Source: Pseudomonas sp. MM213 (GTDB taxonomy: Bacteria > Pseudomonadota > Gammaproteobacteria > Pseudomonadales > Pseudomonadaceae). From it: a stretch of DNA of 64,000 bases. The translations under genes were made by a program, and so were the position numbers. The notes under the pieces are model-generated. The model saw only the letters and a program-made list of their open reading frames with translations. It made no database searches and was not told where the DNA came from. Shown here one piece after another: positions 765 through 62,869 of this stretch (position 1 is the first letter of the stretch; each line of letters begins with the position of its first letter). The DNA lies in contig NZ_CP081943.1 in assembly GCF_020423045.1 (NCBI RefSeq), positions 4,898,001 to 4,962,000 on the forward strand. Reading direction: 5' to 3'.

Positions 765-1240
765 GCAACACCTGTGGAGGAGGTAGATACCGGGAACACC
801 GGCTTGTCTTGTACATACTTAATGCCCGGATTGACCACCAGTTGGCCGTCGATCAGGGCTTTGGAACCGAGAAGCAGGCGATAACGCATGGACTTGCGGC
901 AGGCGAGGGTGAACTCGACGGGCCAGACCCGATCACCGAGGGCCAGGGTGGTGCTGACCACGTAACGCTTCTGCGCCTGGCCGTTGGAGCTCTTGATGGA
1001 TTTCATCGTCACCAGCGGTGCTTCACAGCGTCGGTGTCGCAACTGCACTACCGTGCCCAGGTGCGCGGTGAAGCGCACCCACTGTTCGCCGTCGCGCTCG
1101 AACGGCTCGATGTCAGTGGCATGCAGGCTGGAGGTGCTGGCACCGGTGTCGATTTTTGCCCGCAGGCCCGCAACTCCCAAACCCGGGAGCGCCACCCACT
1201 CGCGCAGACCGACAACGGTCAAATGGTCAAATGTCTTCAA
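761..1240 (-). CDS. rimB: RimB, retropepsin-like protease-fold protein
   Basis: Protein of 159 residues of the 'ATP-dependent zinc protease' (RimB) family, really a retropepsin fold. The catalytic-type motif DTGAS is at residues 31-35, and the [13 protein letters not shown] segment is typical of the family C-terminus. It lies directly upstream of rimK with a four-base overlap, so both are probably on one transcript. In P. fluorescens RimB is reported to work with RimK on S6 modification. The apparent start is TTG 1240, because no ATG or GTG fits the conserved N-terminus; the exact start is uncertain. The rimA gene described for some P. fluorescens rim operons is not visible upstream; the next gene is divergent hslR. 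Confidence 0.88.
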
Positions 1241-1454
1241 AGGTACTCAACCGGTGGATACCGCTGGGGCCGCACGCGGCCGGATTCGCGGTATTCACGC
1301 AGAATAATGGTTAAAAGGCGACAGATATCTACAGCCCGGAATTCCACCCCTGCAAGCGAGGTGTGGCGTGCGCATTGTAGTACGGGTCGGTGGAAATCCT
1401 GGCACGACAGAAACGGTAGTACAGTTCACCAATATTTCAGAATGAGGAAATTCC

Positions 1455-1862
1455 ATGGCACAAAAAAGCGAAGAGGACGACAAGGTCCGTCTCGATAAGT
1501 GGTTGTGGGCCGCGCGTTTTTATAAAACACGTGCCTTGGCGAAAGCGGCGATTGAAAGTGGCAAGGTGCATTGCCGGGGTGAGCGTTGCAAGCCGGGCAA
1601 AGAGCCGCGGATCGGCGACGAGTTTCAGATTCGCGCAGGGTTCGAGGAGCGTACGGTGGTGGTCCAGGCGTTATCGATCGTGCGCCGTGGTGCGCCGGAA
1701 GCTCAGACCTTGTACGCCGAAACCGAGGCCAGCATCGCCAAGCGCGAAGCGGCTGCGGCGATGCGCAAGGCGGGCTCGCTGGGCGTGAGCACCGACGGCA
1801 AACCAAGCAAGAAGCAGCGGCGGGATCTGTTTAAATTTCGTGGGAGCAGCAACGACGAGTGA
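1455..1862 (+). CDS. hslR: HslR, ribosome-associated heat shock protein Hsp15
   Basis: RNA-binding protein of 135 residues with an N-terminal S4 domain (about residues 10-75, beginning VRLDKWLWAARFYKTRALA) and a basic tail ending near KKQRRDLFKF, as in Hsp15. Hsp15 binds 50S subunits carrying an unfinished nascent chain and helps recycle stalled ribosomes. The start ATG 1455 has a good ribosome-binding site (GAGGAA, about six bases upstream). hslR and the chaperone gene hslO lie in tandem but are separated by about 500 bases holding a REP pair and a broken small reading frame. Confidence 0.95.
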   Translation: MAQKSEEDDKVRLDKWLWAARFYKTRALAKAAIESGKVHCRGERCKPGKEPRIGDEFQIRAGFEERTVVVQALSIVRRGAPEAQTLYAETEASIAKREAAAAMRKAGSLGVSTDGKPSKKQRRDLFKFRGSSNDE

Positions 1863-1895
1863 GGCTGTTGCTTCTGCGTTGTCTGGGCTGACGCC

Positions 1896-1960
1896 TTCGC
1901 GGGCAAGCCCGCCCCCACAAGGGATACGCATTTCAATGTGGGAGCGAGCCTGCTCGCGAT
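1896..1960. repeat. REP pair (inverted, GCGGGCAAGC type)
   Basis: Two facing REP-like units after hslR, TTCGCGGGCAAGCCCG at 1896 and its inverted relative TGTGGGAGCGAGCCTGC at 1937, separated by 16 bases. Same family as the many other intergenic pairs in the core part of this window. Confidence 0.75.
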
Positions 1961-2069
1961 CGAGTGCGCAGCACTCGCCAGCCATCCCCGGATTCAGGCA
2001 CTACGCACCACACTTATCCGACCAGCAGTATCCCCCAGACCACCGCATCGAACGGTCGAAGACTTGCAA

Positions 2070-2262
2070 TTACCCGAATGCGCAGCCATATCGGGTGAAT
2101 CGCCAGCGGCGAATCGAGTGGATGGAAAGCCACTCGTCGAAAATCACACACAGCCTCTGACCTGTAGGCCATAACCAGAAGGCCAGCAGCACCAGCGGCA
2201 CAAAATTGCACAGCGCCACCGGCGACGTCCCACCTTGCTTGGAACAAAACCGGATTGTTCAT
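2070..2262 (-). pseudogene. Possible broken small membrane-protein gene
   Basis: In the 1863-2363 gap, a minus-strand frame starts MNNPVLFQARWDVAG at 2262. A second frame continues from about 2219 with a hydrophobic stretch (LCNFVPLVLLAFWLWPTG) followed by a polar tail DEWLSIHSIRRWRFTRYG and a stop at 2070. The two halves read as one short single-span membrane protein split by a frameshift, but I do not recognise the family and cannot exclude chance. The unshifted 82-codon frame (2014-2262) is the alternative. Confidence 0.25.
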
Positions 2263-2363
2263 AAAATGCCTCCCATGGCTGAACAGTGCGCACCAAAACG
2301 GTGCTGCAGAGGCGCAATTTTTCGTTTGTAACCTTTTATCATTTACTTCAGATACCCAGACCT

Positions 2364-3266
2364 ATGACCGATCTACCGGATACCGACTACACCCAACGCT
2401 TCATCTTCGATGACAGCGACACCCGCGGCGAGCTGGTTTCGTTGGAGCGCAGCTACGCCGAGGTCCTTGCCAAACACCCGTATCCGGAGCCGGTCGCGCA
2501 ACTGCTTGGCGAACTGATGGCCGCGGCATCGTTGCTGGTCGGCACCTTGAAGTTTGATGGTCTGCTGATTCTTCAGGCGCGGTCCGACGGCCCGATCCCG
2601 TTGCTGATGATCGAATGCTCCAGCGAACGTGATATCCGTGGTCTGGCCCGTTACGAGGCCGACCAGATCGCCCCCGACGCCACCCTCGCCGACCTGATGC
2701 CCAACGGCGTATTGGCGCTGACCGTCGACCCGACCGTGGGCCAGCGTTATCAGGGTATCGTGGACCTGGATGGCGAAACCCTGTCGGAGTGCTTCACTAA
2801 CTACTTCGTGATGTCGCAACAGGTGGGCACGCGTTTCTGGCTGTACGCCGATGGCCGTCGCGCCCGCGGCCTGTTGCTGCAGCAACTGCCCGCCGACCGC
2901 CTGAAAGACGAAGAAGAACGCGCCGCCAGCTGGCAGCACATCACCGCGTTGGGCAGTACCCTGACCGCCGATGAATTGCTCGGTCTGGACAACGAAACCG
3001 TGCTCCATCGTCTCTACCACGAAGAGCAGGTCCGGCTGTTCGATGTGCAGAAATTGCGCTTCCGTTGCAGCTGCTCGCGCGAACGTTCTGCCAATGCTCT
3101 GGTCAGTTTGGGTCTGGAAGATGCGCAGAGCCTGGTCGTCGAACACGGTGGCAACATCGAGGTCGACTGTCAGTTCTGCAATGAACGTTACCTGTTCGAC
3201 GCCGCCGATATTGTTCAATTATTCGCCGGTGCGGGCGTCGACACGCCGTCAGATACCCGTCACTAA
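2364..3266 (+). CDS. hslO: HslO, redox-regulated holdase chaperone Hsp33
   Basis: Cytoplasmic chaperone of 300 residues that is activated by oxidation and unfolding of its C-terminal zinc domain and then holds unfolding proteins. The four zinc cysteines are present as CSC (about residue 235) and CQFC (about residue 270), the family's C-X-C...C-X2-C pattern. Start ATG 2364 ([17 protein letters not shown]) fits the family N-terminus; the frame is open upstream to 2286 but that part is not conserved-looking. The gene follows hslR, as in many gammaproteobacteria, and precedes pckA by 180 bases. Confidence 0.97.
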
Positions 3267-46116: not shown

Positions 46117-46845
46117 ATGAGTTTCTTCACCATCGACGGTTTCAACACAGAACATTTCGCACACGATGAGCATATCCAGCAGTTGTTGCAGGGGTGGAAA
46201 AAGTCGATTGACCGCTACCTGCGCAATGTTGAAAAGGCGACTGGAGAATCCTGCTGTGATGCACCCTGGTGGTACAACGAGAGGACTAGCATCAGTGTTC
46301 TGGCGGGCGCGGCGTGGATCAATCAGTGGGCGGCGCTTGAGGAGTACAGCACGACCAAGCGCGGGGCCCCTGATGAAAACCTTGAGAAAAACCATCGCAT
46401 CGGTCGTGCCGATCTGATGGTGCAAACACCCGAGGTTTCCTTTGCATTCGAAGCCAAGCAGGCATGGCAGCGAATTGGCACACGCACCACAGCAGGTGCT
46501 CGTAGCAAGAACATCCTCAAGAAAAAGAAATCTGCCTGGAAGGATGTTAGAGAGTTGAGCGTGCAGGAAGCGGACTACCGATTTTCAGCTACTTTCGCCG
46601 CGCCTTTCTTTCCCGATTCCGATTTCGAGAAGCTGCTGGAAAACTCAGGCAAGAAACCGGTCACGGCCTACATCAAGGCTTGGTACGAAGAGCTTCATGA
46701 GCAGTTGAGTAGCCAGACACGTGGGCGGACCCATTACATGGCCGCCTACTTTCCGGATCCAGAGGGTGGTTTGGTTACCAGTACGTCCGGGTTTCATTAT
46801 CCGGGGGCTGTTCTCATTCTTGAGCAGTGCCAGAAGGGTAATTAG
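46117..46845 (+). CDS. Hypothetical protein with PD-(D/E)XK nuclease-like motif
   Basis: Protein of 242 residues that I cannot assign to a named family. It contains RIGRADLMVQ...FAFEAKQAW, i.e. Asp99 followed 13 residues on by Glu112-Ala-Lys114, the D...ExK core of PD-(D/E)XK nucleases, and an upstream Glu55 in a helix (WWYNERTSISVLAGAAW) at the place of the fold's helix-1 Glu. No methyltransferase or other partner is adjacent. It sits at the core/island boundary, consistent with a solitary restriction or defence-type gene. AAAAGGAG lies 12 bases upstream of ATG 46117. Confidence 0.65.
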   Translation: MSFFTIDGFNTEHFAHDEHIQQLLQGWKKSIDRYLRNVEKATGESCCDAPWWYNERTSISVLAGAAWINQWAALEEYSTTKRGAPDENLEKNHRIGRADLMVQTPEVSFAFEAKQAWQRIGTRTTAGARSKNILKKKKSAWKDVRELSVQEADYRFSATFAAPFFPDSDFEKLLENSGKKPVTAYIKAWYEELHEQLSSQTRGRTHYMAAYFPDPEGGLVTSTSGFHYPGAVLILEQCQKGN

Positions 46846-46884
46846 AGCGTCGCGTGAGTCACTAAGGCCTGCGTTTTTAAACCG

Positions 46885-46932
46885 CAGAAACAACAAAGCC
46901 CTCGTATTTCTACGAGGGCTTTGTTGTTTCTG
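46885..46932 (-). terminator. Perfect 22-bp inverted repeat, terminator of the lost tRNA-Thr gene (copy 1)
   Basis: CAGAAACAACAAAGCCCTCG... pairs perfectly over 22 bases around a TTTC loop. It sits directly 3' of the decayed tRNA on the minus strand, where Pseudomonas tRNA genes normally have such a terminator. The same hairpin recurs at 50891. Confidence 0.75.
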
Positions 46933-47000
46933 GTACAGGGAATCGAGCCTCGAAACTGCTGATTACGAAAGAAGTGCTTCATACCTATAAAGCTCACCGA
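46931..47000 (-). pseudogene. Decayed tRNA-Thr (CGT-like) remnant, att-site relic copy 1
   Basis: Read on the minus strand the segment has GTGAGCTTTATAGG, an anticodon-loop-like TTTCGTAATCAG, a T-loop-like CTCGATTCC and terminal CCA. This matches a Pseudomonas tRNA-Thr in order, but the acceptor stem and anticodon stem no longer pair, so it is not a working tRNA. It is a typical footprint of repeated integration at a tRNA gene. Confidence 0.6.
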
Positions 47001-50681: not shown

Positions 50682-50890
50682 TTCGACAAGCACTCTTGCC
50701 GGACGTTTGAAACGTCCCCCCGCCGAAACAAGATCATCTTGCTCCCACCACAAAATATGCGCCCCAATCCCCTGAGGGAAGGGCGCATCAATGGGCAGTG
50801 CAGCGAGGCGCCAGCCAACAAGGCTGCCGCCAGCTCCCAATCAGCTGAGAAGCTGTGACAAGAGCTGTGACCAAATCGGGTATGAAACCC
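50682..50890. other. Gap after wecE
   Basis: No gene recognised. Moderately GC-rich sequence leading into the second tRNA-Thr/att relic. Confidence 0.4.
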
Positions 50891-51075
50891 CAGAAACAAC
50901 AAAGCCCTCGTATTTCTACGAGGGCTTTGTTTTGTATGGTGCCGGCACCAGACGAACGGTAGTGGTCGGCGGGGCTAGGTTTTCTGCGGGTCTGGAAGTC
51001 TGTGGAAAATTTGGCGTACCCCAACTAGTAACTATAAATAAATCAGCTAGTTATGGCTTTCAGTGGAATCGAACC
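50891..51075 (-). repeat. att-like relic copy 2: tRNA-Thr terminator, 3' end and element tail
   Basis: Starts with the same hairpin as at 46885 (CAGAAACAACAAAGCCCTCG), then TGGTGCCGGCACCA, which is the complement of a tRNA-Thr 3' end including CCA, then about 130 bases (GACGAACGGTAGTGGTCGGC ... AATCAGCTAGTTATGG) shared with copy 3 at 57585. The shared tail ends near a T-loop-like GGAATCGAACC. Confidence 0.7.
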
Positions 51076-51184
51076 GGGGCCAGCAATTCTCGACCGTGGG
51101 TAGTCGTCAAAATATTGATACGGATGCTAAATCCTAGGTCCGAATATCTTTGACTAACACCAAGGGGAACGGCACGCCAAAAAT

Positions 51185-51352
51185 GCTCGCCGATCGAATC
51201 GACCGATCAAGGAAGCGGCGCAGATCTGGGCGATGAACGAGCTGGAGCCGATTCAGGCCCGATTGCAGCAGGTCAATGACTGGCTGGGCGAAGAAATTAT
51301 TCGGTTCGAATCCTTTGAGTTAGGACAGGGTAGTAAGTGTGCCCCTAGCTAA
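51185..51352 (+). pseudogene. Coding fragment of unknown gene
   Basis: A frame without its own start reads NRPIKEAAQIWAMNELEPI, then QARLQQVNDWLGEEIIRFES and stops at 51352. It has coding-like composition (amphipathic helix) and looks like the C-terminal end of a larger protein cut by the repeat to its left. Family not recognised. Confidence 0.35.
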
Positions 51353-51380: not shown

Positions 51381-52295
51381 TTATAGCATTCCAATTAGCT
51401 TGGAAATACCTTTCCAGAGAATAGTAAATAAAGTCGGGATGAGTAGCAGATAGATTATAAAAACAGGTATGCGACCAATCAGCGGGTGTGATGCAAGTAG
51501 CAGCATGAAGCTTGATTTCGGCTTGTGTTCATCCCACGCTGATGGAACTATTTGTTCATCTTGAATCAGGGGGCGCCAATACTTTTCAGCATGGTTGTTT
51601 TTAAGTTCGAAAAAATCGCTGTGTTCATAATCAAAGTAACGATCTGTTACACTGCCGTTTTGAAATCCTCTACGACCAGAGCTGCCATAGCCAAGCGTTG
51701 TAATTGTAGCAACTATCGGCCATATATCTCTTGTCCCCACGTCATTGACTATTGCCTCTTTGCGCATACCCTTAGCATAAAGCGCCCAAGGAAAGTCTCT
51801 GCGAATAATAGAACCGCACAATATTATTTTTTCGAAAGAAATGTCAGGGTGTTCTGCGAGTATTTTGCTAGTTATATACGTGCCAAAGCTGTGAGCTATC
51901 ACAAAAATTTTTGCCATTGGCTCTTCGCTTTTTATTATTCTAATATCTCTGACGACTTTGTTAATTGGGCCGGACCGAAATGGACACGCAAGCTGTATTC
52001 CCGTTACTACGTCGTAACCCAAATCGTGGACCTGCAGGTTCGGCACCGTTTTCATTTGTGCCTGGATCTGTTTTTGCCACGACCCATCAGTATGTATACC
52101 GTGGATTAAAACAAGAATTTTAGAGTTTGGGCTGTCTTGCAAACCATTTCTCTTGTTGTCTACTAGACCATCAAATAAAGTTAGATGCTCTGGTGGTACT
52201 GTAGTTCTTAAATATTTAAAAACTTCCCTTCTTTGATTGGGTACTGTGGCGTGCCAGAATTTCTCTACAAGCTCAATAACTTTAGTGCAGTCCAT
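51381..52295 (-). CDS. Membrane-anchored alpha/beta hydrolase (third gene of unknown operon)
   Basis: Protein of 304 residues. The core is an alpha/beta-hydrolase: oxyanion motif VLIHGIHTDGSW (61-72), nucleophile elbow AHSFG with Ser136, and a candidate catalytic His in FFELKNNHAEKYW near residue 240. A C-terminal transmembrane helix (VFIIYLLLIPTLFTILWKG, about 277-296) would hold it at the inner membrane facing the cytoplasm. A lipase or esterase acting on membrane lipids is possible. Overlaps the middle gene by 14 bases. Gene is AT-rich compared with the core genome. Confidence 0.8.
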   Translation of the reverse strand: MDCTKVIELVEKFWHATVPNQRREVFKYLRTTVPPEHLTLFDGLVDNKRNGLQDSPNSKILVLIHGIHTDGSWQKQIQAQMKTVPNLQVHDLGYDVVTGIQLACPFRSGPINKVVRDIRIIKSEEPMAKIFVIAHSFGTYITSKILAEHPDISFEKIILCGSIIRRDFPWALYAKGMRKEAIVNDVGTRDIWPIVATITTLGYGSSGRRGFQNGSVTDRYFDYEHSDFFELKNNHAEKYWRPLIQDEQIVPSAWDEHKPKSSFMLLLASHPLIGRIPVFIIYLLLIPTLFTILWKGISKLIGML

Positions 52296-52668
52296 CTTTT
52301 ACCACGCTATACATGGTTTCAAGGTCGTTATCACTAACTTCCATTGTTACATCTCGGAGCGGGTCATAAACTGAAAGTGGGCAGTCGTACCAACTGTCGA
52401 CTTCCATAATGGCTGGGCCGAGCGGGGATCTAATTACATACTTTCGCTCTAAAATGCCAGCCTGTATCAATATAGTTGTGACTTTCGCAAATCGCGCGGA
52501 GCTTCCTGCTTGAGACACGTCAAACAGCCGTCCTGGATTCATCTCAACGTCGAGAACTCGAATCCCATCACGCAATTCAATGCTGCCAAAGTGCTCGGCA
52601 ACCCTTCTAATTGCGTCTGCCTCCTGTGGGAAGGCATTAATTAAGGGAGAGAATCTGTCCGCAAACAT
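52282..52668 (-). CDS. Small protein of unknown family (middle gene of unknown operon)
   Basis: Protein of 128 residues, mixed alpha/beta, with a helix-turn-helix-like central part (VSQAGSSARFAKVTTILIQA, then GILERKYVIRSP) that could be a winged helix. No signal peptide or membrane helix. Overlaps the upstream gene by 32 bases and the hydrolase gene by 14, so the three are translated as a unit. Start ATG 52668 with GGAG nine bases upstream. Could be a regulator or adaptor; unknown. Confidence 0.75.
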   Translation of the reverse strand: MFADRFSPLINAFPQEADAIRRVAEHFGSIELRDGIRVLDVEMNPGRLFDVSQAGSSARFAKVTTILIQAGILERKYVIRSPLGPAIMEVDSWYDCPLSVYDPLRDVTMEVSDNDLETMYSVVKDGLH

Positions 52669-53785
52669 ATGAATATTCTCCAGGAGTACAAGCCGCAGTC
52701 ACCGCAAACTCATTAATTTCACCATTCAAAAGAACATGAATTTGCCGTTCTTCCTCGCCATTGATTATAAACCAAATATTGCTACCCGTCACAAAGCCTT
52801 TTTGTGCTAAAAATTCCTTCATCGCCGCTGATGAGCCATCATCTTCAGAAAGGTTCTGAGACAGGTTTGACGCTGCAAGGTTCATTGCGATGCCATAATC
52901 ATTTCTAGCAGTTGTGCTGCTGTAACGAATAATGCCTTCGAATTCTTCCTTTTTCAAAAACAAGGTGTCTTTAGCCTTGCTGAGCGACAGGATTTCAAAA
53001 GAATCCATTGGGAAGAATTTGCTTGCCATTCTAATGACATCTGAAACTTGCTCGTGATACTTGGTTGAGTTATCTCGTGACGCAATGCGTATTTCAAGAA
53101 GCCCATCTAGAGTCAATGTTGCAATGTTAATCGCGCGCTTTTTAGTTACTTTGTAAGTTTTCGTACGAGAACTGGTTACTGGGTCGTAATCATCATTGAC
53201 AAGTTTGCTGGTTTCGCGACATTCACTGATCTTTACGGTAAGAGAGACGGGGCCGGTACCGTTCGGGGCCTCTGGAAGTCGAATGTCGACAATCTTGGCC
53301 TCTTCAGGCATTTCTATGTGCAGTGGGTGGGACAGCAACTCTGCAACTCCAAGGTCTTTAGCTATGGAGTGAATGCGCATTTTGTTAAGTATTGCGCGTG
53401 CATCTGCAGGGCTGCACTTATACAGAAAAATATGCTGTCTACCGTGCTCTTCTACATCTTGTAGCAATGTTGCAAGATCTACTAGGCTAAGCTTTTTAGA
53501 TTGAAGCGCAGGCAATATCCGATTGGAATATAGCTCGTCCCAGTTGGGTGCGGTAATTGCTATATCTTTTTCTCGCAAAAACTCACGAACAACTGTTTGG
53601 CTAGTTGCTTCTTTTAGCAGATTGAAAATTACCTGCGCTTGTTTCTCTTCCGCCTCACTCAGCACTTCTTCACTCCAATAGGGGACGTTTAATACTTTGC
53701 TCTCAACTATGTTGTAAGCATTATAAAGAAGGCTTGGGAGCATGCAGGGACTAAAACAAATAAAGCATCCTGCTGAACGATCCAT
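52637..53785 (-). CDS. Large protein of unknown family (first gene of unknown operon)
   Basis: Protein of 382 residues that I do not recognise. The N-terminal third is helical with NWDELYSNRILPALQSKKLS, then LVDLATLLQDVEEHGRQHIF, then LYKC; the middle and C-terminal parts are beta-rich (VSLTVKISECRETSK, KKRAINIATLTLDGLLEIRI) and may be a sensor or ligand-binding fold. Cytoplasmic. Start ATG 53785 has AAGGAAGG just upstream and is preferred to GTG 53818. It heads the operon with the small protein and the hydrolase. Confidence 0.75.
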   Translation of the reverse strand: MDRSAGCFICFSPCMLPSLLYNAYNIVESKVLNVPYWSEEVLSEAEEKQAQVIFNLLKEATSQTVVREFLREKDIAITAPNWDELYSNRILPALQSKKLSLVDLATLLQDVEEHGRQHIFLYKCSPADARAILNKMRIHSIAKDLGVAELLSHPLHIEMPEEAKIVDIRLPEAPNGTGPVSLTVKISECRETSKLVNDDYDPVTSSRTKTYKVTKKRAINIATLTLDGLLEIRIASRDNSTKYHEQVSDVIRMASKFFPMDSFEILSLSKAKDTLFLKKEEFEGIIRYSSTTARNDYGIAMNLAASNLSQNLSEDDGSSAAMKEFLAQKGFVTGSNIWFIINGEEERQIHVLLNGEINEFAVTAACTPGEYSYVCGQILSLN

Positions 53786-54735
53786 GACCTTCCTTAGACG
53801 CCCAGTTTCGCCTTTCACACGATTTTCTACAATGGCACATAGTGGCTTTTTGCTTTGAATATTCCTTTTCGTCCGGGCATTCGTCGGATGGGGAAGTGAC
53901 GTGCTTCAAGATATGTGTAGCACCATAATGGTGCGTGCAAAGGAAGTTCTACACCTGGCGCGCGCCGTCGTCCCCCCGCCACGGCTGCGGGCTAAATGTG
54001 TCGTTTTTTCTGCACCCCTGCACTCAGTTCAAGCCGGCCCAGCCTGGGGGCTGTGTGCGCGAATGTAGGGCGGAAAAAGCCTGCGAATCCCTGCGAGAGT
54101 GGGGCGATTCTGAGAGATGGCTCGGGAAAAGGGTTAGTTTTTGAAAATGGGGGGAGAGGTACCTTGCAGGCTCCGTTTTTGCTGGGCTTGAAGTCTAACT
54201 TTGGGAGGTTAGTTATGGTTAGGTTTAAGGTTAGTAAATCGTAGTTTACTGATTTATAAGGGTTTTATTCACTGTTTTTTAACAGTTATAAAGGTTAGGA
54301 AATTACCTCTCATAACCCTAGAGCTAACCTAGGACGCCGACCGCAAAGCCGCACAGCACAAGGCTTTCAGAGTGATTAGCAAAAAACTAACCTTCCTAAC
54401 CTCTTTCCCGTGGGTCAACATGAAAAGCCGAAGGCACCTAGGGGGTGGGTGCTGGCAAAGGTCCATCTGCTGTTTGTGCGTGCAAACACACAAACGGACA
54501 CCGCATCTGCACTGCATAGAGTCCGCTACATTCGCTCTTCGGGTCCTGGATGGTAACCCTGCGCGCACAACTTCCCGGCCAAACACAGGGGGTGAATGCC
54601 CGGGCGCGTCACCGACAGTCAGCGGCCATTTGATTTTGGCAATAGGACGCCTACCGTTTCTACTCGCGGCCTCTTGCGTCGGTTACCCCATAAGCTCGAT
54701 AGACCGCGTGCTTCATCCAATTGAGGAGCACTATC
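53786..54735. other. 950-base gene-poor region
   Basis: No convincing gene on either strand. The left part holds the promoter of the hydrolase operon; the right part contains the GGTTAG repeat cluster (54132-54401) and the start region of the tachylectin-like gene. AT-rich in 54180-54310. Confidence 0.5.
54132..54401. repeat. Cluster of GGTTAG hexamers (iteron-like)
   Basis: Five GGTTAG copies on the plus strand (54132, 54207, 54217, 54229, 54293) followed by three CTAACC copies (54324, 54387, 54396), so the two groups face each other around an AT-rich centre. Several are spaced 9-12 bases, about one helical turn. Such arrays bind replication initiators or dimeric regulators. Confidence 0.55.
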
Positions 54736-56502
54736 ATGTCTGAAGAGCTTAAAGGTGATGAGGTCTACGTCACGGTCGCAACAGCGATTCCCTATGTGCA
54801 ATACGTCGCCAAAGCGTACGAAATCATCATGGAGATGTGGCAGTTCGGGCGCGAGAGCGAGACCGACAAAGCAATCCGGCTTTTAAATGACCGAGTCGGG
54901 AAGCTTGAGCAGAACGTCAGAGTGTTGGACGACCGGCTCAGTGAACTCGAAGTACGGGTGGCACAGGGCGAGAACCGCGCTCGGCTAAACCGGATTAGGG
55001 AACATACAATCGAGTTAGTCGCTTCGGCTCGCATGCTCTTGAGTCATCCGGAGGATGCCGCGGACGTCGCCAATAACACGCTCGACCGCCTTCGAGCCAT
55101 GATCGAGGACGACGATCTGTGGATGTGGAGCGATGCCATCCGCAAGCCCGATGATGCCGCACCGGACTGGCGGCAGGCCGCACCGCGGTTCAAGGGTATG
55201 CCACTGTCGTCATTCGCAGTCGGAACGATGCTGTGGGCGTTTGCCGCGCAGGCGGCAATCACTGCGGGTGGATCGCGTGCCACCTACGTCGCGAATGCCG
55301 AAGAGATACTGCGATGGGTGTCGACTCGTACTGACTTCGTCCGCTATGAAACGCCGCCTGTGTCTATCGCCGAAAGATTCCGTGATGCTGTGCGGGTCGA
55401 GATCGATATCCTGACCCGCTACGTAAACCCAGCGGGCAACTGCGAGTACGGGTTCGCCGCAGTCAACGACATCGACCGAAGCCGCAAGCTGATTCGCAAT
55501 GTCGATATCCACGTCGGGCCGGGGCCGGTGGCGGCATTGTGCATGCCCGACCCACGCATCGCTGAAGTAGACGAGGCGATCCTGGAAGACGAAACGCCCG
55601 AGATCCGAACGCTCATGTTGGTCGAGGAGGCGGTCTCGCGCATCAAGAACCGCGGCAGTCTCGCCGACCCGTGGATCGGGGAGTTCCCCGGTTGGACAGC
55701 GCACCGATTGACACTGTACGGCATCGAACCCAACGGAAACCTTCGTCGCTTTGAAATCGAAACGACAACTGCGCTCGTCGAGCCACCCCCTGTCGCCAAG
55801 ATCGGGGAAGTTGTGGGCATCGGTTGGCAGAACTTCGCTGATGTTTTCTGCACCTACAACACGGTGATGTATGCCTTCTTGGACGACGGCGCCATCGACT
55901 GGTATCGCGAGGACGACGTTGCCGAGGGGCCCGCCGGATGGGCAGGTCCCACGCGCGTTCGCCCACCACGGGGCTTCATGCCGTTGGGGTCCTCCAGTAC
56001 ATATATCAATGGCGGTGGGGGGAGCTTCTACAACGTGTGGGTGCGCAGCAATAACCTACAGATTAAGCGCTCACTGGAGCGGATGGTTCATGGTGATCCG
56101 CGCAACGGCAACGGCTTGTTCGGTGACGGCGTCGTGGTTGTACCCGAATGGCCCGGCTACACGGCCGTGTTCGGCGGCGACGACGGTGTGATCTACGGGA
56201 TCGACGAAACTGGCGATCTGTACTGGCACAAGCACTCGCAGGAGCTTAACAAGCTCGACGGACCGGTGAAGATTGGCAATGGGTGGAACGGCTTCGCCCG
56301 TGTTTTCGCGTTCGGCGAAGGTTTTATCGCGGGACAGTATGCGAACGGTGAGATGATGCTCTACCACTTTCAGCAGTGGCGATGGGGGCCCAAGGGTGAG
56401 GCACCTGTGTGGCACGGACCCGTGCGGGTAGGGGGCACGCAGTGGAGAGGGTTTCAGCGCCTGATCCCGATGATCGGCGATGCACCGCCCATCATCGCCT
56501 GA
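54736..56502 (+). CDS. Coiled-coil protein with tachylectin-like beta-propeller
   Basis: Protein of 588 residues, no signal peptide. N-terminal helix (VATAIPYVQYVAKAYEIIMEMW), then a heptad coiled coil at about 40-85 (IRLLNDRVGKLEQNVRVLDD type), a helical middle, and a C-terminal part from about 340 with repeated W..F..VF / GxIYxxDExGDLYWHKH / W.GFARVF units typical of tachylectin-2-like propellers, which bind GlcNAc-type sugars. High GC, unlike the AT-rich flanks, so it probably came from elsewhere. Start ATG 54736 with GAGGAGC. Could be a sugar-binding toxin or defence effector; role unknown. Confidence 0.75.
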   Translation: MSEELKGDEVYVTVATAIPYVQYVAKAYEIIMEMWQFGRESETDKAIRLLNDRVGKLEQNVRVLDDRLSELEVRVAQGENRARLNRIREHTIELVASARMLLSHPEDAADVANNTLDRLRAMIEDDDLWMWSDAIRKPDDAAPDWRQAAPRFKGMPLSSFAVGTMLWAFAAQAAITAGGSRATYVANAEEILRWVSTRTDFVRYETPPVSIAERFRDAVRVEIDILTRYVNPAGNCEYGFAAVNDIDRSRKLIRNVDIHVGPGPVAALCMPDPRIAEVDEAILEDETPEIRTLMLVEEAVSRIKNRGSLADPWIGEFPGWTAHRLTLYGIEPNGNLRRFEIETTTALVEPPPVAKIGEVVGIGWQNFADVFCTYNTVMYAFLDDGAIDWYREDDVAEGPAGWAGPTRVRPPRGFMPLGSSSTYINGGGGSFYNVWVRSNNLQIKRSLERMVHGDPRNGNGLFGDGVVVVPEWPGYTAVFGGDDGVIYGIDETGDLYWHKHSQELNKLDGPVKIGNGWNGFARVFAFGEGFIAGQYANGEMMLYHFQQWRWGPKGEAPVWHGPVRVGGTQWRGFQRLIPMIGDAPPIIA

Positions 56503-56960: not shown

Positions 56961-57533
56961 TCAGGCTTCGGCGGAATTCGGAGGCAACGCTGCATTCAGT
57001 CGCTCTATCAGCCAGGAGCATGATCCCCACATCATCGCGGCGTCCTGGTACTCCATCTCCCGATCCGTCAGGTGCACTGCATCGTTTCGAACTTTGGACA
57101 GCTGTAGAAAGGTTGTGTAGATCAAAGGGTCGATGACTCGCTCATCGTGCAGCGCTCGCATCTTCACTACGGTGCTGGCTTTCGCCGAAAACTCGTAGCC
57201 CAGTTCGTTAGCCAACAGGTCTACGGTCGCCTCTACTTCAAGCCATGAATGCAGGATGGCGCCACGTGGCGATACTGCAGCAAGTTGAAGAGCAACAGGC
57301 GTCGGAAGGGGAGCTTTTTCATCACCAGGAAGTTCCTGAGCCTTGCTCGGGAGACTCTCCTGGACTGCCCTCAACTCCTCGGTGAGATCGACATGAAGCT
57401 CGCCGTATTTGAAACTACGGATTTTGGGAATGAGCCCTAAGATCGGATCTTTTAGCAGACAAACGACCGTTACCACAGCGGCTGGCCATGCGATGGCGGA
57501 CGCTAGCGCCGAAACAAACTGCATCCAATCCAT
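56961..57533 (-). CDS. Membrane-anchored HEPN-like protein
   Basis: Protein of 190 residues: one N-terminal transmembrane helix (about 8-28, ALASAIAWPAAVVTVVCLL), a linker, then a helical domain with AILHSWLEVEATVDLLANEL and LSKVRNDAVH. The latter is a Rx4H motif (Arg149 to His154) with a polar residue after Arg, the mark of HEPN ribonuclease domains; the layout resembles DUF4145-type HEPN proteins. Start ATG 57533 is preferred; the frame opens earlier inside the att-like repeat. No nucleotidyltransferase antitoxin partner is next to it. Confidence 0.65.
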   Translation of the reverse strand: MDWMQFVSALASAIAWPAAVVTVVCLLKDPILGLIPKIRSFKYGELHVDLTEELRAVQESLPSKAQELPGDEKAPLPTPVALQLAAVSPRGAILHSWLEVEATVDLLANELGYEFSAKASTVVKMRALHDERVIDPLIYTTFLQLSKVRNDAVHLTDREMEYQDAAMMWGSCSWLIERLNAALPPNSAEA

Positions 57534-57584: not shown

Positions 57585-57763
57585 GCAAAAACAAAAGGCC
57601 CGCATTGCTGCGAGCCTTTGTTTTGTATGGTGCGGCACCAGCCGAACGGTAATGGTCGACGGGGCCAGGCTTTCTGCGGGTCTGGAATTCGGTGGAAAAT
57701 TTTCCATACCCAAACTAATAATTATAAAAAAATCAGCTAGTTATGGTTTTCACTGGAATCGAA
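57585..57763 (-). repeat. att-like relic copy 3: tRNA-Thr terminator, 3' end and element tail
   Basis: Diverged copy of 50891-51075: hairpin with GCGAGCCTTTGTTTTGTATG, then GGTGCGGCACCA (tRNA 3' end with a one-base loss), then the shared tail (CGAACGGTAATGGTCGACGG ... AATCAGCTAGTTATGG) and GGAATCGAA. Orientation is the same as in copies 1 and 2, so copies 2 and 3 are direct repeats around the 51.1-57.5 kb block. Confidence 0.7.
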
Positions 57764-58217
57764 TCAGGGATTTTTAAGACGTCAGAGCGCTGTCGGTCTG
57801 CACGTAAAACATCCAGAGCAGCATACGGCATGGTAAACCATGAGAGCTTGAGCGTTGCCGATTATTTCCCATGGATAATAGGCAGGAGTCGGCCAACAGT
57901 GGACACCCCCATCGACTGTATCGAACCAATTGCTCGCGCTAGACTTGGCACCTATCAGATATCGAGAGCCGCGATCCAATTATATTACATGTTTACCTGC
58001 ACACATTGATGAGCCTATAGCTACCCGTCTTACCCACGCTTATGGCGAATGAGAATCTTCCCAAAATTTATATTTTCTGATACTGCAGGGACTCCCGCCT
58101 TAAAGTTCGGATTTGTCCATGGATGACGGCGACGAGATTAGCCACAGATTAATCGTGATTTCCTACGTTGATTACAGTACCGTTGTACTATAACGTTTAC
58201 ATGGTATGGAGCGAGTA
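57764..58217. other. AT-rich gap before the first kinase gene
   Basis: No gene recognised; increasingly AT-rich toward 58217 and probably holds the kinase promoter. Confidence 0.4.
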
Positions 58218-59546
58218 ATGAGCTATAGTACAGGCGATTTAATTGACGATCGATATATAGTTTCCGGTGTTTGCAGTGATAGTGGGGGGATGGGGCAGAT
58301 CTTATTTGTAGAGGATGCCACAAAGGAGAACAGCGGTAGGTTGGTTTTGAAATATTGTCGCGAAGAGGACGATGAGTACATCAAACGGTTTCGAAGAGAA
58401 GTTAGGCTTTTGGAGGGGTTTGCGGGGAACTCCAAGGTTGTTAGCGTCCTAGACAGTAATGTGCGCCACGAGCCTCCATACTTCGTGATGGACTACTACC
58501 ATAATGGCGATTTAACAAGAATTATCGATGAAATTGCGGGTAGCCCTGAAAAGCAAGAATCTATATTCAATCAGATGATTGATTGCATTTCCGAGCTTCA
58601 TTCCCAGGGCGTATATCACAGAGATATAAAGCCACAGAATTTCTTAATAGGTAAGAGGGGCATCGTCGTATCGGATTTCGGGCTTGGCATGGAGCCCGGG
58701 TCCTCGTCCAGGTTTACGAGTAGCTCAATGTTCTGGGGGACTCAGGGATATCTGCCGCCCGAGTTTGGGAACGGTGGATTTAAAGGTGCAGATGAAACCG
58801 GCGACATATTTATGCTCGGCAAGAGCTTATATGTTCTACTTACCAGACAAAATCCTACTTATCTGATGGAGGGGGTAATACATCCAGCGTTATTTCACGT
58901 GATTGAAAGGGCGTGCGAGCTTGATAAGAAGAGACGATATCAAAATCTATCGGATATGAAACAGGCGCTCCAGATGGCCTACGACGTTATCATCGGACGT
59001 GGAGGGAGACTGGGGCAGGTCAATCAATTGATATCATCAATATCTGACCGGCTGGCTAATGAGAACAAATTCAGTTCGGCCAAAGTTATTGAGTTCATCA
59101 ATAGTTTAGGGTTGCTCGACGACGATGATAAAATACGAATTTGCCTAGAGATTGATCGTGATTTCATTTCTTTGCTAGTACTTCCGAAACTGGTGAGTTA
59201 CGTACCATCATTCTTAAAAATTTATTCTTTGATGGTCGCCGATGCGCAGTACAGTTGGGCTTTTGCTGAAGTGATTGCTAAAAACATGAAGGTGATATTT
59301 GAAGGGGAAGATGTTTCCCATCGAGCTAGAGCTAGAGCGCTTGAGCTGGCTATTGATAGTGCCCATCAGATGAACAGATTTGCAGCTATGAACACCTGTG
59401 AGTCAATGATAGCGTCTGTCACTGATGAAGAGCTAGCTGTTTATATTGTGGATGTGATGCAAAGGAATAATCACAGTTTTATTGAGGAGATTGAACCGTC
59501 GCAGTGTAAGTCAAGTGCCATTAAAAAATATCTGAAGTCATTGTAG
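58218..59546 (+). CDS. Ser/Thr protein kinase with C-terminal helical domain
   Basis: Eukaryotic-like protein kinase of 442 residues. Elements in order: glycine loop SDSGGMGQILF (20-30), Lys45 in VLKY, helix-C Glu61, catalytic loop HRDIKPQNF (134-142), DFG (153-155), a PPE in GYLPPEFG (178-184) and ADETGDIFMLGKSLYVLL. All catalytic residues are present. The region after about 260 is helical without a recognised domain and no transmembrane helix, so it is cytoplasmic. AT-rich codon use. Start ATG 58218 with a GGAGCGAG site. Convergent with a second kinase gene. Confidence 0.88.
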   Translation: MSYSTGDLIDDRYIVSGVCSDSGGMGQILFVEDATKENSGRLVLKYCREEDDEYIKRFRREVRLLEGFAGNSKVVSVLDSNVRHEPPYFVMDYYHNGDLTRIIDEIAGSPEKQESIFNQMIDCISELHSQGVYHRDIKPQNFLIGKRGIVVSDFGLGMEPGSSSRFTSSSMFWGTQGYLPPEFGNGGFKGADETGDIFMLGKSLYVLLTRQNPTYLMEGVIHPALFHVIERACELDKKRRYQNLSDMKQALQMAYDVIIGRGGRLGQVNQLISSISDRLANENKFSSAKVIEFINSLGLLDDDDKIRICLEIDRDFISLLVLPKLVSYVPSFLKIYSLMVADAQYSWAFAEVIAKNMKVIFEGEDVSHRARARALELAIDSAHQMNRFAAMNTCESMIASVTDEELAVYIVDVMQRNNHSFIEEIEPSQCKSSAIKKYLKSL

Positions 59547-59838: not shown

Positions 59839-60966
59839 TCAGAAATAATCGAAGGGCTCAGAGTCGAAGTGTTTCCACTCAACTTCATCAAAATAATTAG
59901 GTGCGTCAAGAAATCTCTGAATCATGCCAAAATCTGACGGCATAAAGTCCTCTACCAAGATAAACCACAGCGCATTTCTTGCTTCCTGAATAAACATCCG
60001 ATCTTTAGGATCCTTCCGCAGCAATCGCACAATAAGCTTGGATAGTATTGGCGCCGCGCTCGTCGCATACGTAGAAAGATCAAACAAGCCAAACTTAACC
60101 TCCCATTCAATCCGTTTCTGCGCCGCAGCATATTCCCCAATATTTTTGAAAGAGAACAGGTCTTTCCCGGTTACCAATTTATACAATAGCAGCCCCATAG
60201 CCCAAGAATCATACTTATTGTACTCAGATCCCGAAGCCTCCCAGTCGATAAAGGTCTCGGGAGGTAGATTATAGAACGAGTTGGTTATCTCTCGCCCGAT
60301 GCCATTATGAATGGTGACCATGTCGTCACTATCATTTTCGCTGTACTCGAAGTGCATTCTGCTATATGACTGACCCCAGTCCAAAATGATGGTTTTATAA
60401 TCTGGCCGCTTAGAATGTAAATCGATATCTTCATTTAGAAGAATAATGTTTCCTGGATGCAAGTCTCGGTGAGTTACGAACATGCTAAAATGTTCGGCGG
60501 CCCCAAATACTCGGTACGCTACCGTGAGCCGATCTTTCAGAGACGCATTGCAAAACTTTTCTCCAAACCAGTCTAACAGAAGTGTTCCATGAATCCTTTC
60601 CGTGACCAAGTAGAGGATCTTTCCATCAAACAGTTCACCGCCTGCCAAATATTCCGGTGTCTTTTTTATAATTCCGTTGAAAAGAGCTTGCCCCTTCAGA
60701 AAACTCGCCTCATTTCTAAATCTTGCTCGTTCCAGCTCAGAGCGAGGAAAGATACAAAACTTAACGAATACATCTCTGCCTGTTTCTTCATCTACACCAA
60801 AGAACCCTGTCGAGCTTTTTCCGCCTGAGACTTCCTTGTGAAGTCTATACCTTCCCTCTAGAAGGGAAAGGCCTGTCATGTCAAAGAAATTTTTTTCTTT
60901 GACGGCATTACTGGTGCCGGTTAGCATGCGTGCGAAAGCCTCAAATAGGAAACGGAATGCCTTCAT
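59839..60966 (-). CDS. Protein-kinase-like protein with DWG motif
   Basis: Kinase-fold protein of about 375 residues. VFVKF holds Lys69, Glu86 is in RFRNEASFL, the catalytic loop is HRDLHPGNI (166-174) and the metal motif is DWG (196-198) instead of DFG. The HRDLHPGN form is common in bacterial small-molecule or atypical protein kinases. GRYRLHKEVSGGKSSTGFFG is the glycine loop. A C-terminal acidic tail follows. Start ATG 60966 is assumed; GTG 60990 and ATG 60927 are alternatives. Its 5' end overlaps that of the divergent ART-like gene. Confidence 0.82.
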   Translation of the reverse strand: MKAFRFLFEAFARMLTGTSNAVKEKNFFDMTGLSLLEGRYRLHKEVSGGKSSTGFFGVDEETGRDVFVKFCIFPRSELERARFRNEASFLKGQALFNGIIKKTPEYLAGGELFDGKILYLVTERIHGTLLLDWFGEKFCNASLKDRLTVAYRVFGAAEHFSMFVTHRDLHPGNIILLNEDIDLHSKRPDYKTIILDWGQSYSRMHFEYSENDSDDMVTIHNGIGREITNSFYNLPPETFIDWEASGSEYNKYDSWAMGLLLYKLVTGKDLFSFKNIGEYAAAQKRIEWEVKFGLFDLSTYATSAAPILSKLIVRLLRKDPKDRMFIQEARNALWFILVEDFMPSDFGMIQRFLDAPNYFDEVEWKHFDSEPFDYF

Positions 60967-61394
60967 TATATCGGGGCTTCGCTGAGCCACTGAGTTCGGC
61001 CGAACAAGTTAATATTTTTCGCCATTCCCCTCGCATCCCTCGCGAAACTAGCTTGCAAGTCCACGATCACGCTGATGCATGGTTTCTCAAGCGATTTGGT
61101 ATCAAAGCCAGAAGCACAACCATAATCTGCTCTACAGATTTCTCTCAAGCCAGATCCTACGGCCCAACCTATCGTATTACGCCCTCTGAGCCCTCTGCAA
61201 TATTTTATAGCCCACTAGTCAGGGATTTTCTAGAGCACGAGACCGAATTGAGCTCAACATCTCAAGCGGACGTATGGGCTTGGCTGGAGAAGAAGCAATA
61301 CACCGTTGTCTCGAACATCGAAAACATAAAATCGGACTTTTTAGGTGAGGTAATGGTCTGCTGCACGAACTTTTTGGCAGTCCCCCTAATTTAA
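60957..61394 (+). CDS. Small protein, possibly ADP-ribosyltransferase-like
   Basis: Protein of 145 residues, no signal peptide. It has LYRGF near the N-terminus (Arg6), HDHADAWFLKRFGIKARS, then IICSTDFSQARSYG (Ser59-Thr60) and FLGEVMVCC (Glu131). The order Arg, Ser-Thr, Glu resembles the R-S-E signature of mono-ADP-ribosyltransferases, with YRG and GEVM at the typical places, but similarity is faint and the call is inference. Start ATG 60957 (AGGAAACGGA upstream) lies inside the 5' end of the divergent kinase gene. Confidence 0.6.
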   Translation: MPSLYRGFAEPLSSAEQVNIFRHSPRIPRETSLQVHDHADAWFLKRFGIKARSTTIICSTDFSQARSYGPTYRITPSEPSAIFYSPLVRDFLEHETELSSTSQADVWAWLEKKQYTVVSNIENIKSDFLGEVMVCCTNFLAVPLI

Positions 61395-61589: not shown

Positions 61590-61892
61590 TCAGCTATGGT
61601 TGTTTTCTGATCTTCGCTTGGCGGTGAACTTCCAGGATTTTCCTAGGCGATGAGTGAGTAATTGCATGGTCAGCAAATAGTAATAGCGCGTCGATTCAGT
61701 GTGCTGGATTAGGTGGTGATTCAAAAACCACGCAAGGTGTTTTCTCTGCCAAGTCCATGGATTGTCGCGTTGCCAGCGCTCAGCGATTGCTGTTTGGATA
61801 GCCTTCGCCTGACGCAGGTGGCGTTGGCGCGTGGTATGCGACCCGGTCAGGACACCCGCCAGGAACAGATTCATATCGAATGCCGTGCTCAT
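61590..61892 (-). CDS. Small helical protein coupled to the integrase
   Basis: Protein of 100 residues rich in Arg, His, Trp and Gln (LRQAKAIQTAIAERWQRDNP, then WTWQRKHLAWFLNHHLIQHT, then ESTRYYYLLTMQLLTHRL). The central part looks like the SAM-like core-binding domain of tyrosine recombinases. Starts inside the integrase stop codon (ATGA overlap), so it is co-translated and may be an accessory recombination factor. Confidence 0.7.
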   Translation of the reverse strand: MSTAFDMNLFLAGVLTGSHTTRQRHLRQAKAIQTAIAERWQRDNPWTWQRKHLAWFLNHHLIQHTESTRYYYLLTMQLLTHRLGKSWKFTAKRRSENNHS

Positions 61893-62869
61893 GCTCGACC
61901 ACCAATGTAAGCGGCCACCACGACGATACGGTTGTGCCCCAGCTCATAGCTGATTTGTACTCGGGCATCCTGATCTAGGCGTCGGTCGAGTTGATAGCAA
62001 TGGCCACCGTTGATGGGAGCGGTATGGTGGGTGATTTGCTCATAGCGTTCGCACGCATAGGCTGCCCGCAATTCGTGGAAGCCTTTGAGGTTGTGCTTAT
62101 GGAGGATGTCCCGTGCGGCGCGGACGATTTCCCGTTGGAAATCGAGGTAGCTTTCGTTCGGCGTAAGCAGGTTGTGGCTGCCGTCGGGTAAGACCTGTTC
62201 GGCGAATCTCAGCGCTTCGCGAATATGATCATCCACCCTGATCCAGCGAGGTGCCGAGGCACCTGAGCGGCCCCCTTTGGTGCCATCCTGGATATTGATC
62301 TTGCCGCAGTGTTCGGCCTCACGTTTTAAGCGCGGTAAGTCGGCCAAAATGGCCTCGCGCAAGCGCATGCCGGCGGCTCGCGCCAACTGAGCGATGGCGG
62401 CGGCGCGTGGCATTTGGTGTTCGCAGAGTACGTCGACGACCCGTTTCACCTGTTTGCGGTCTTGGCCTTGCGGCACCGATTGACGAACACAGGTGCGCCG
62501 CATTCCCAACGCCTTGCTCGGACTCACGATCTTCACATACTGATCACCGCGAAGCGCAGCCAGGGTCCGGTTCACGCTGGACAATCGGTTTTGCGCGGTG
62601 GCGATGCCTATAGCGCTTTGTTCAACTTGTTGACGCAGATATCCGGCGTAGTCCAGCAAGGTCTGCCGATCAATTTGTCGCGCATCGTTAAATCCTGGTC
62701 CATGCTCCGATCGACACCACCGAACAAACGCCTGCCAGCGATCACTGTGCGCTTTGACCGTGCCGTAGTGCCCGCCGCCAAACAGATCGCGCAATGCCTG
62801 CGGTCCGGCATAGCTCAATTGCCGCCCATAGCCAAAGTTCCGCCCGTCACGTCTACCGACCAGTGCCAT
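61889..62869 (-). CDS. Integrase_1-type tyrosine recombinase
   Basis: Site-specific recombinase of 326 residues with an N-terminal core-binding domain (SDRWQAFVRWCRSEHG) and a C-terminal catalytic domain: Arg169 in ARAAGMRLREAIL, His265 and Arg268 in GFHELRAAYACE, Gly-His at 311-312 in SYELGHNRIVV, and Tyr321 as nucleophile. The order Arg...His-X-X-Arg...His...Tyr is complete, so it is probably active. This type is found with integrative elements in Pseudomonas. Good site GAGGAG seven bases before ATG 62869. Confidence 0.88.
   Translation of the reverse strand: MALVGRRDGRNFGYGRQLSYAGPQALRDLFGGGHYGTVKAHSDRWQAFVRWCRSEHGPGFNDARQIDRQTLLDYAGYLRQQVEQSAIGIATAQNRLSSVNRTLAALRGDQYVKIVSPSKALGMRRTCVRQSVPQGQDRKQVKRVVDVLCEHQMPRAAAIAQLARAAGMRLREAILADLPRLKREAEHCGKINIQDGTKGGRSGASAPRWIRVDDHIREALRFAEQVLPDGSHNLLTPNESYLDFQREIVRAARDILHKHNLKGFHELRAAYACERYEQITHHTAPINGGHCYQLDRRLDQDARVQISYELGHNRIVVVAAYIGGRA

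Follow-up and report, generated by a model that had tools for sequence, protein, structure and literature searches.

A candidate mobile anti-phage operon in Pseudomonas that joins a predicted RdgC-fold protein to a membrane hydrolase

The window analyzed here, a stretch of 64,000 nucleotides from Pseudomonas sp. MM213 (contig NZ_CP081943.1, positions 4,898,001 to 4,962,000), contains an operon of three overlapping minus-strand genes that we call g1, g2 and g3. We consider it likely that this operon is a mobile module of biological conflict and that its effector is a membrane protein. We give a probability of roughly 0.6 to the more specific reading that it acts in abortive-infection defense, with g1 as a sensor of DNA state, g2 as an adaptor and g3 as the killer, the sensing of DNA being the weakest step. 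We infer both this role and its mechanism. A plan of sensor, adaptor and membrane effector had already been suggested from the sequence alone, and it is favored by the constancy of g1 and g2 and by the exchange of the third gene for other membrane proteins.

Architecture of the operon and exchange of its third gene

The first gene had been described as coding for 382 residues. A frame of that length exists (52637..53785, minus strand), but the protein most likely has 342 residues and starts at a GTG at 53665 (52637..53665, minus strand), because 20 among the first 27 g1 homologs listed are 342 residues long and those that were aligned begin at this codon. Only one of two long homologs has the additional 40 residues, and this protein (P0001) is a near-copy with 98% identity. 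The 128-residue g2 (52282..52668) and the 304-residue g3 (51381..52295) follow on the same minus strand; all three frames lie where they had been reported, and the overlaps of 32 bases between g1 and g2 and of 14 bases between g2 and g3 are exact. In 40 of 42 compared rows a g2 start is possible 32 or 35 bases ahead of where g1 ends, and in 23 of them a g3 start lies 14 bases ahead of the end of g2, duplicates and the window's own locus being counted in. The operon is AT-rich, as had been noticed, with a guanine and cytosine (GC) content of 0.448 at 52001-54000 against about 0.55-0.65 across most of the window.

Protein searches returned 82 matches for g1, 16 for g2 and 89 for g3, including the window's own proteins. 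The g1 alignment, used to scan one genome for each of 84,980 species, yielded 26 loci, and a g1 scan of IMG/VR yielded 14. Some loci were missed, since a sequence had to contain both of two short peptide patterns to be found in the genome and viral scans. By profile, g1, g2 and g3 occur in this order in 18/26 genome loci (12 Pseudomonas, 5 Burkholderiales-type genomes and one Methylococcaceae bin) and in 14/14 viral loci, g1 being cut short in L088. L004/L078 and L012/L083 are near-identical pairs, and the 40 genome and viral loci form 34 groups at 95% g1 identity.

The remaining 8/26 genome loci come from three Acidobacteria, two Rhizobium/Agrobacterium and one bin each of Hyphomicrobiales, Phycisphaerales and Kiritimatiellales. 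Profiles recognized g1 and a weak g2 in four of them and g1 only in the other four. In these loci g1 is followed by a gene of the size of g2, alignable with it at 14-24% identity, and then by a protein of 119-174 residues with one to three hydrophobic helices. Since a small membrane protein takes the third position in these 8/26 loci, g1 and g2 appear to form a constant core to which an exchangeable third gene is added, one that codes for a membrane protein in each case that we read.

The N-termini of the two kinds of third protein were compared using 67 of the 89 hydrolases and the first 75 residues of 6 of the 8 small membrane proteins, those of L020 and L023 and 22 hydrolases having been dropped. 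They aligned by hhalign over 34 columns at E 6.6e-5 and, in the reverse direction, over 30 columns at E 2.3e-4 (probabilities 64 and 45), a score reached by 0/150 column-shuffled controls. A distant two-gene relative, detected through weak g1 matches in 8/398 same-genus genomes, encodes a first protein that is a homolog of g1 (294 columns, probability 91.8, E 7e-7) and a hydrolase whose N-terminal part aligns with g2 over 83 columns (E 0.0026, probability 12, 0/150 shuffles). This N-terminal part also has cysteine pairs that by eye resemble a zinc ribbon. Among the two-gene loci (L039-L044), L040 is near matches to Avs4 (E 3.7e-150) and PDC-S06 (E 2.6e-66). Searches of the hydrolase N-terminus and of the small membrane proteins against g2 gave no match. 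The shared N-terminus and the g2-like part on the two-gene hydrolase both suggest a single signaling path in which g2 and the N-terminal region of the third protein take part.

In the window this third protein, the proposed effector, has a docking-like N-terminus and passes the Pfam cut-off for Abhydrolase_1 (E 2.5e-7). The nucleophile elbow previously noticed at Ser136 lies within the motif AHSFGT, and S136, D190 and H225 are invariant in 51/51 aligned hydrolases; g3 is thus an alpha/beta hydrolase, and we infer that these residues form its catalytic triad. The C-terminal membrane helix that had been described fits a hydrophobic stretch at residues 263-281, and such a helix is present in 64 of the 81 hydrolases that were long enough for the count (8 of 89 were dropped). 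In a single-sequence search, g3 was not close to any solved structure (best E 0.25).

The hydrolase family reaches beyond the g1-g2-g3 system. Operons on a plasmid of Enterobacter hormaechei and one of Klebsiella variicola begin with two genes matching PADLOC PDC-M60A and B and have in third place a g3-family hydrolase whose N-terminal part matches PDC-M60C. A relative in Klebsiella pneumoniae matches DUF6932 and PDC-M63A (E 1.6e-8). When viral contigs were scanned with the alignment of the hydrolases, 23 loci resulted, of which 16 contain g1, g2 and g3 (L081 and L088 as read from the g1 viral-contig reading), while the other 7 show no g1 or g2 within the fetched flanks. At 4228-6678 of L121, a gene that by eye is like phage RdgC adjoins a hydrolase with a nucleotidyltransferase-like N-terminal part, and L119 and L120 have similar fusions. 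P0186 seemed by eye to combine a g1-like N-terminal half with a g3-like hydrolase; an assembly error is possible there, and it was given no weight. An effector-associated domain suspected by eye in P0178 was not shown by Pfam.

Neither g1 nor g2 matches a Pfam or NCBIfam family above cut-off, in line with the earlier description of g1 as a protein of no known family. The sequence-only reading had also named a match of g1 to a housekeeping lipid-metabolism family as evidence that would speak against defense, and g1 matched none in these two databases. The AlphaFold model of g1, with a predicted local distance difference test score (pLDDT) of 93, combines an RdgC/CENP-L-N fold with a four-helix domain at the N-terminus, so that g1 is predicted, as a monomer, to have the RdgC fold. 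When the g1 alignment A2 was compared with 28 RdgC sequences by hhalign, no profile homology was found (probability 0.06, E 0.72), and g1 was rejected as a true member of the RdgC family. The genome of the window has a separate RdgC of its own. No sequence relative of g1 was found among solved structures, and a PADLOC match of g1 to SduA (E 0.027) was taken as chance. The second protein, g2, is probably a winged helix, its best matches being DNA-binding winged helices such as Fur (compared by fold only); its PADLOC match to BrxHI (E 0.01) was likewise attributed to chance.

Mobile and defense-associated surroundings

Phage, recombinase, transposase or defense genes were recognized in the fetched flanks of 15/26 genome loci. 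This count is incomplete and is not a rate, because only selected neighbors were scanned (9 proteins of the loci and the integrase of the window; 8; 3 phage-type; 10; 7, with L006 twice) and the others were labeled by eye. Flanks are short on at least one side in L006, L011, L018, L021 and L023, and gene calls in the fetched loci are mechanical and composition-trained. The recognized genes include an integrase, an S24 repressor and DnaB in L002, a portal and a terminase in L003, a portal in L004, a tape measure in L016 and an integrase in L021. Baseplate genes were assigned in L005, L007 and L012, with profile support (PHROGs) for L005 only: Pfam gave nothing for L005 or L012, and L007 and L012 were counted by likeness to L005. 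Transposases occur in L008 together with a methyltransferase, in L009 together with a PDC-S20 match, and in L020; a resolvase occurs in L025. In L014 (5014-13925) a type I restriction locus encloses the operon, with HsdM and HsdS encoded ahead of it and HsdR behind it, so that hsdS and hsdR flank it; ThsB is found in L015 and a TIR effector in L024. Of 14 different neighbor proteins searched against PADLOC, 10 match at E 1e-4 and 4 do not; one of the ten, a weak match to Csa3/CARF models in L019, was left out of the context count. The control, 0/10 matches for core genes of the window, used genes picked by the analyst and not at random. Prophage or defense-gene surroundings in these genome loci, together with the occurrence of the operon in viral contigs, bear out the mobile and defense setting that had been proposed from the window. 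One viral contig with the operon, L077, also has a gene at 1177-3066 with NsnB- and AriA-like PADLOC matches.

The operon is rare. A full-length g1 match was found in 7/398 same-genus genomes and, in the phylum sample, in 1/398, which is the window's own genome. Searches did not find g3 in deposited phages, and none of the three proteins matches a PHROGs family at E 0.01. Matches to the gpP-like terminase are present in three of the seven genus genomes with full-length g1: in G131 and G263 the single match lies about 4 kilobases (kb) from g1, and in G332 both matches are on other contigs. The P2-like portal gene gpQ adjoins the operon in L003 and L004, and adjoins it or lies within about 1.1 kb of it in L075-L078 and L088.

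The window retains a trace of the same arrangement. Just past g3, on the plus strand at 51206..51334, is a 3'-end remnant of gpQ that corresponds to the last 38-43 residues of the portals of L003, L004, L075-L078 and L088 (tblastn, 61-84% identity over 38-43 residues, E 5.6e-10 to 1.3e-15). Homology to relatives is also found ahead of g1: the DNA at 53927..54492 aligns with the upstream flank of L004/L028/L078 (76% over 604 columns), and 53946-54022 is about 90% identical to the L076/L077 flank. The att-like repeats that had been reported around the block were recovered as a 137-nucleotide pair with 87% identity, the left copy at 50925..51079 and the right copy at 57616..57769. They contain a 25-nucleotide core that agrees, at 23 to 25 positions, with the end of the tRNA-Thr(TGT) gene (its 3' side) and the adjoining bases in the relatives L004, L005, L007, L012 and L083. 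On the simplest reading of these traces, the operon of the window would be the cargo of a decayed prophage.

The two neighbors singled out earlier fared differently. The tachylectin-like gene (54721-56502, plus strand, opposite to the operon) encodes 593 residues with a C-terminal tachylectin domain (Pfam E 4.7e-15), while the HEPN-like gene upstream of the operon (56961..57533, minus strand) has no Pfam match, although RNDAVH, which we take to be a HEPN motif, is visible in its translation. Relatives of the HEPN-like gene precede g1 in the viral contigs L081 (82%, same orientation) and L080 (39%); the tachylectin protein, which lies between it and the operon, was not found in the fetched related loci. 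The island also contains a tyrosine recombinase (Integrase_1, E 1.7e-8) at 61889..62869 on the minus strand. Two protein kinases in the same low-GC island (58206-59546 and 59839-60990) show PADLOC likeness to PD-T4-6 and Mad6. Terminator-like hairpins are repeated at 46879-46939 and 50885-50945 beside the att-like repeats, perhaps reflecting several past integrations at one site, and to the left of the island a 242-residue gene (46117-46845) has a sub-threshold PD-(D/E)XK match.

Proposed mechanism and competing explanations

We propose that the module is mobile, often carried by phages, and of the abortive-infection type, with a sensor of a new class. With the fold of the DNA-encircling RdgC, g1 would monitor a DNA state caused by a competing phage, for instance replicating or recombining phage DNA. 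From there the signal would pass, by way of the N-terminal helical domain of g1 and the winged-helix g2, to the docking region at the N-terminus of g3. Anchored in the inner membrane, g3 would hydrolyze a membrane ester, in a lipid or lipid-like substrate, and its action would halt growth or kill the cell ahead of phage maturation.

Several observations weigh against this proposal. The lack of a sequence link between g1 and RdgC weakens the case for DNA binding by g1, and the template modeling (TM) scores of its fold matches are modest. At the threshold used, 17/81 hydrolases are without a C-terminal membrane helix. The PDC-M63AB pair, the type matched by the N-terminal part of one hydrolase relative, was tested and no defense was seen, according to the available part of the source (PMC12409345). 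A search for g1 in 50,697 phage records and 72,556 plasmids gave no match. In 11/26 genome loci the fetched flank had no gene that we recognized as belonging to a phage, transposon, recombinase or defense system, and the defense-gene neighbors had been chosen for scanning because they looked interesting. The seven genus genomes with full-length g1 each have 7 to 23 matches to the PF00589 integrase, and in none of the seven does such a match lie within 10 kb of the operon; the nearest, at about 10.1 kb, is in the window's own genome. Finally, the two-gene variant stands, as judged by eye, in shared chromosomal flanks in 4/6 loci read, and probably in 5. Homologs in stable loci, named by the sequence-only reading as evidence against it, were thus found in part, as this variant and as the 11 loci with no recognized mobile or defense gene.

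The rival that survives best is a cassette for prophage maintenance or lysogeny conversion that serves its own prophage only and involves no cell suicide. Like RdgC, g1 would then serve DNA repair or counter recombination by incoming relatives of the prophage, g2 would be an ordinary regulator, and g3 would alter the envelope to bring about superinfection exclusion. Such a cassette agrees with the carriage of the operon within prophages, with the occurrence of RdgC proteins in phages and with the likeness of g2 to DNA-binding winged helices such as Fur. We nevertheless consider it unlikely, since g1 and g2 also adjoin restriction and TIR genes where no phage gene was recognized, the place of the third gene is also taken by membrane proteins that are unrelated in other respects, and the g2-like part fused to the two-gene hydrolase fits an adaptor better than a repressor.

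Improbable to a further degree is an addiction module of the toxin-antitoxin kind, in which g3 would be a membrane toxin held by g1 and g2 and freed on loss of the element, with phage protection as a by-product. A tight overlapping operon, a patchy and phage-linked distribution and a third protein of a membrane-bound type would suit it, but three genes with a 342-residue folded component would be unusual for such a module, and g1 was not found on any of the plasmids searched (72,556). Very improbable, lastly, is a host lipid or envelope enzyme operon riding on mobile DNA by chance: it would account for an alpha/beta hydrolase with a membrane helix, for the two-gene variant in shared chromosomal flanks of several Pseudomonas and for the 11/26 loci mentioned above, but not for the exchange of the third gene or for so rare and patchy a distribution (full-length g1 in 7/398 same-genus genomes and weak matches in 8; 1/398 in the phylum sample).

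Should the abortive-infection reading be right, the operon would represent a new defense family whose sensor uses a DNA-ring fold, and would explain the cargo beside gpQ in some Pseudomonas P2-like prophages. One membrane hydrolase family would then be a plug-in effector in at least two candidate kinds of system, and the RdgC-like/membrane operons of Bacillus and haloarchaea would gain a testable function.

Comparison with known systems

No named defense system fits the operon, as had been suspected. PADLOC gave only the weak matches noted above (E 0.027 and 0.01), and Pfam, NCBIfam and PADLOC gave neither a cyclase (CD-NTase) match, as expected of the cyclic-oligonucleotide-based antiphage signaling system (CBASS), nor an ATPase domain, as expected of ABC-3C, for any of the three genes. 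Full-text literature searches found no publication describing the present three-gene system and no paper linking the RdgC-type DNA-ring fold to immunity. PDC-M60 also has three genes, and on the two plasmids the third gene is a fusion of a PDC-M60C-like part with a g3-family hydrolase, but PDC-M60 is characterized by a large first protein and receiver domains, and g1, g2 and g3 of the window do not match it.

From RdgC itself (PF04381), g1 differs by its extra N-terminal helical domain and by the genes that share its operon, g2 and one for a membrane protein. CENP-L/CENP-N and Iml3 are eukaryotic kinetochore proteins to which g1 shows a weak likeness that is limited to structure and close to that of unrelated rows, and the likeness to the CENP-N helical domain is based solely on alignment start points. 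A likeness between CENP-N/L, RdgC and TBP is already published, as the available part of PMC4080450 describes.

By its position beside gpQ, the operon resembles the anti-phage genes, old and tin among them, that P2 phages carry in the gpA-gpQ hotspot, a likeness judged from the gpQ side; the genes themselves differ. The available part of PMC9122126 presents this interval in E. coli P2-like phages as a tested reservoir of anti-phage genes. In the Pseudomonas P2-like phages Dobby and Sirocco, hypothetical genes of differing sizes stand next to gpQ.

The nearest published plan that we found is that of the RdgC-histone operons of Bacillus and Halobacteria, which encode a histone, an RdgC-like protein with extra small domains and a membrane protein with a winged helix (PMC11390915, in its available part, where no defense role is proposed for them). 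They share with the window operon an RdgC-like protein adjoining a membrane protein and differ in their first gene, a histone, since g1, g2 and g3 are all without a histone match. More tentatively, proteins that combine the RdgC/CENP-L-N fold with a helical domain might be unrecognized DNA immune sensors of prokaryotes that work with winged-helix adaptors and interchangeable membrane effectors; the histone, RdgC-like and membrane protein operons of Bacillus and haloarchaea would possibly belong to the same class, and CENP-L/N would share the fold and CENP-N the domain order.
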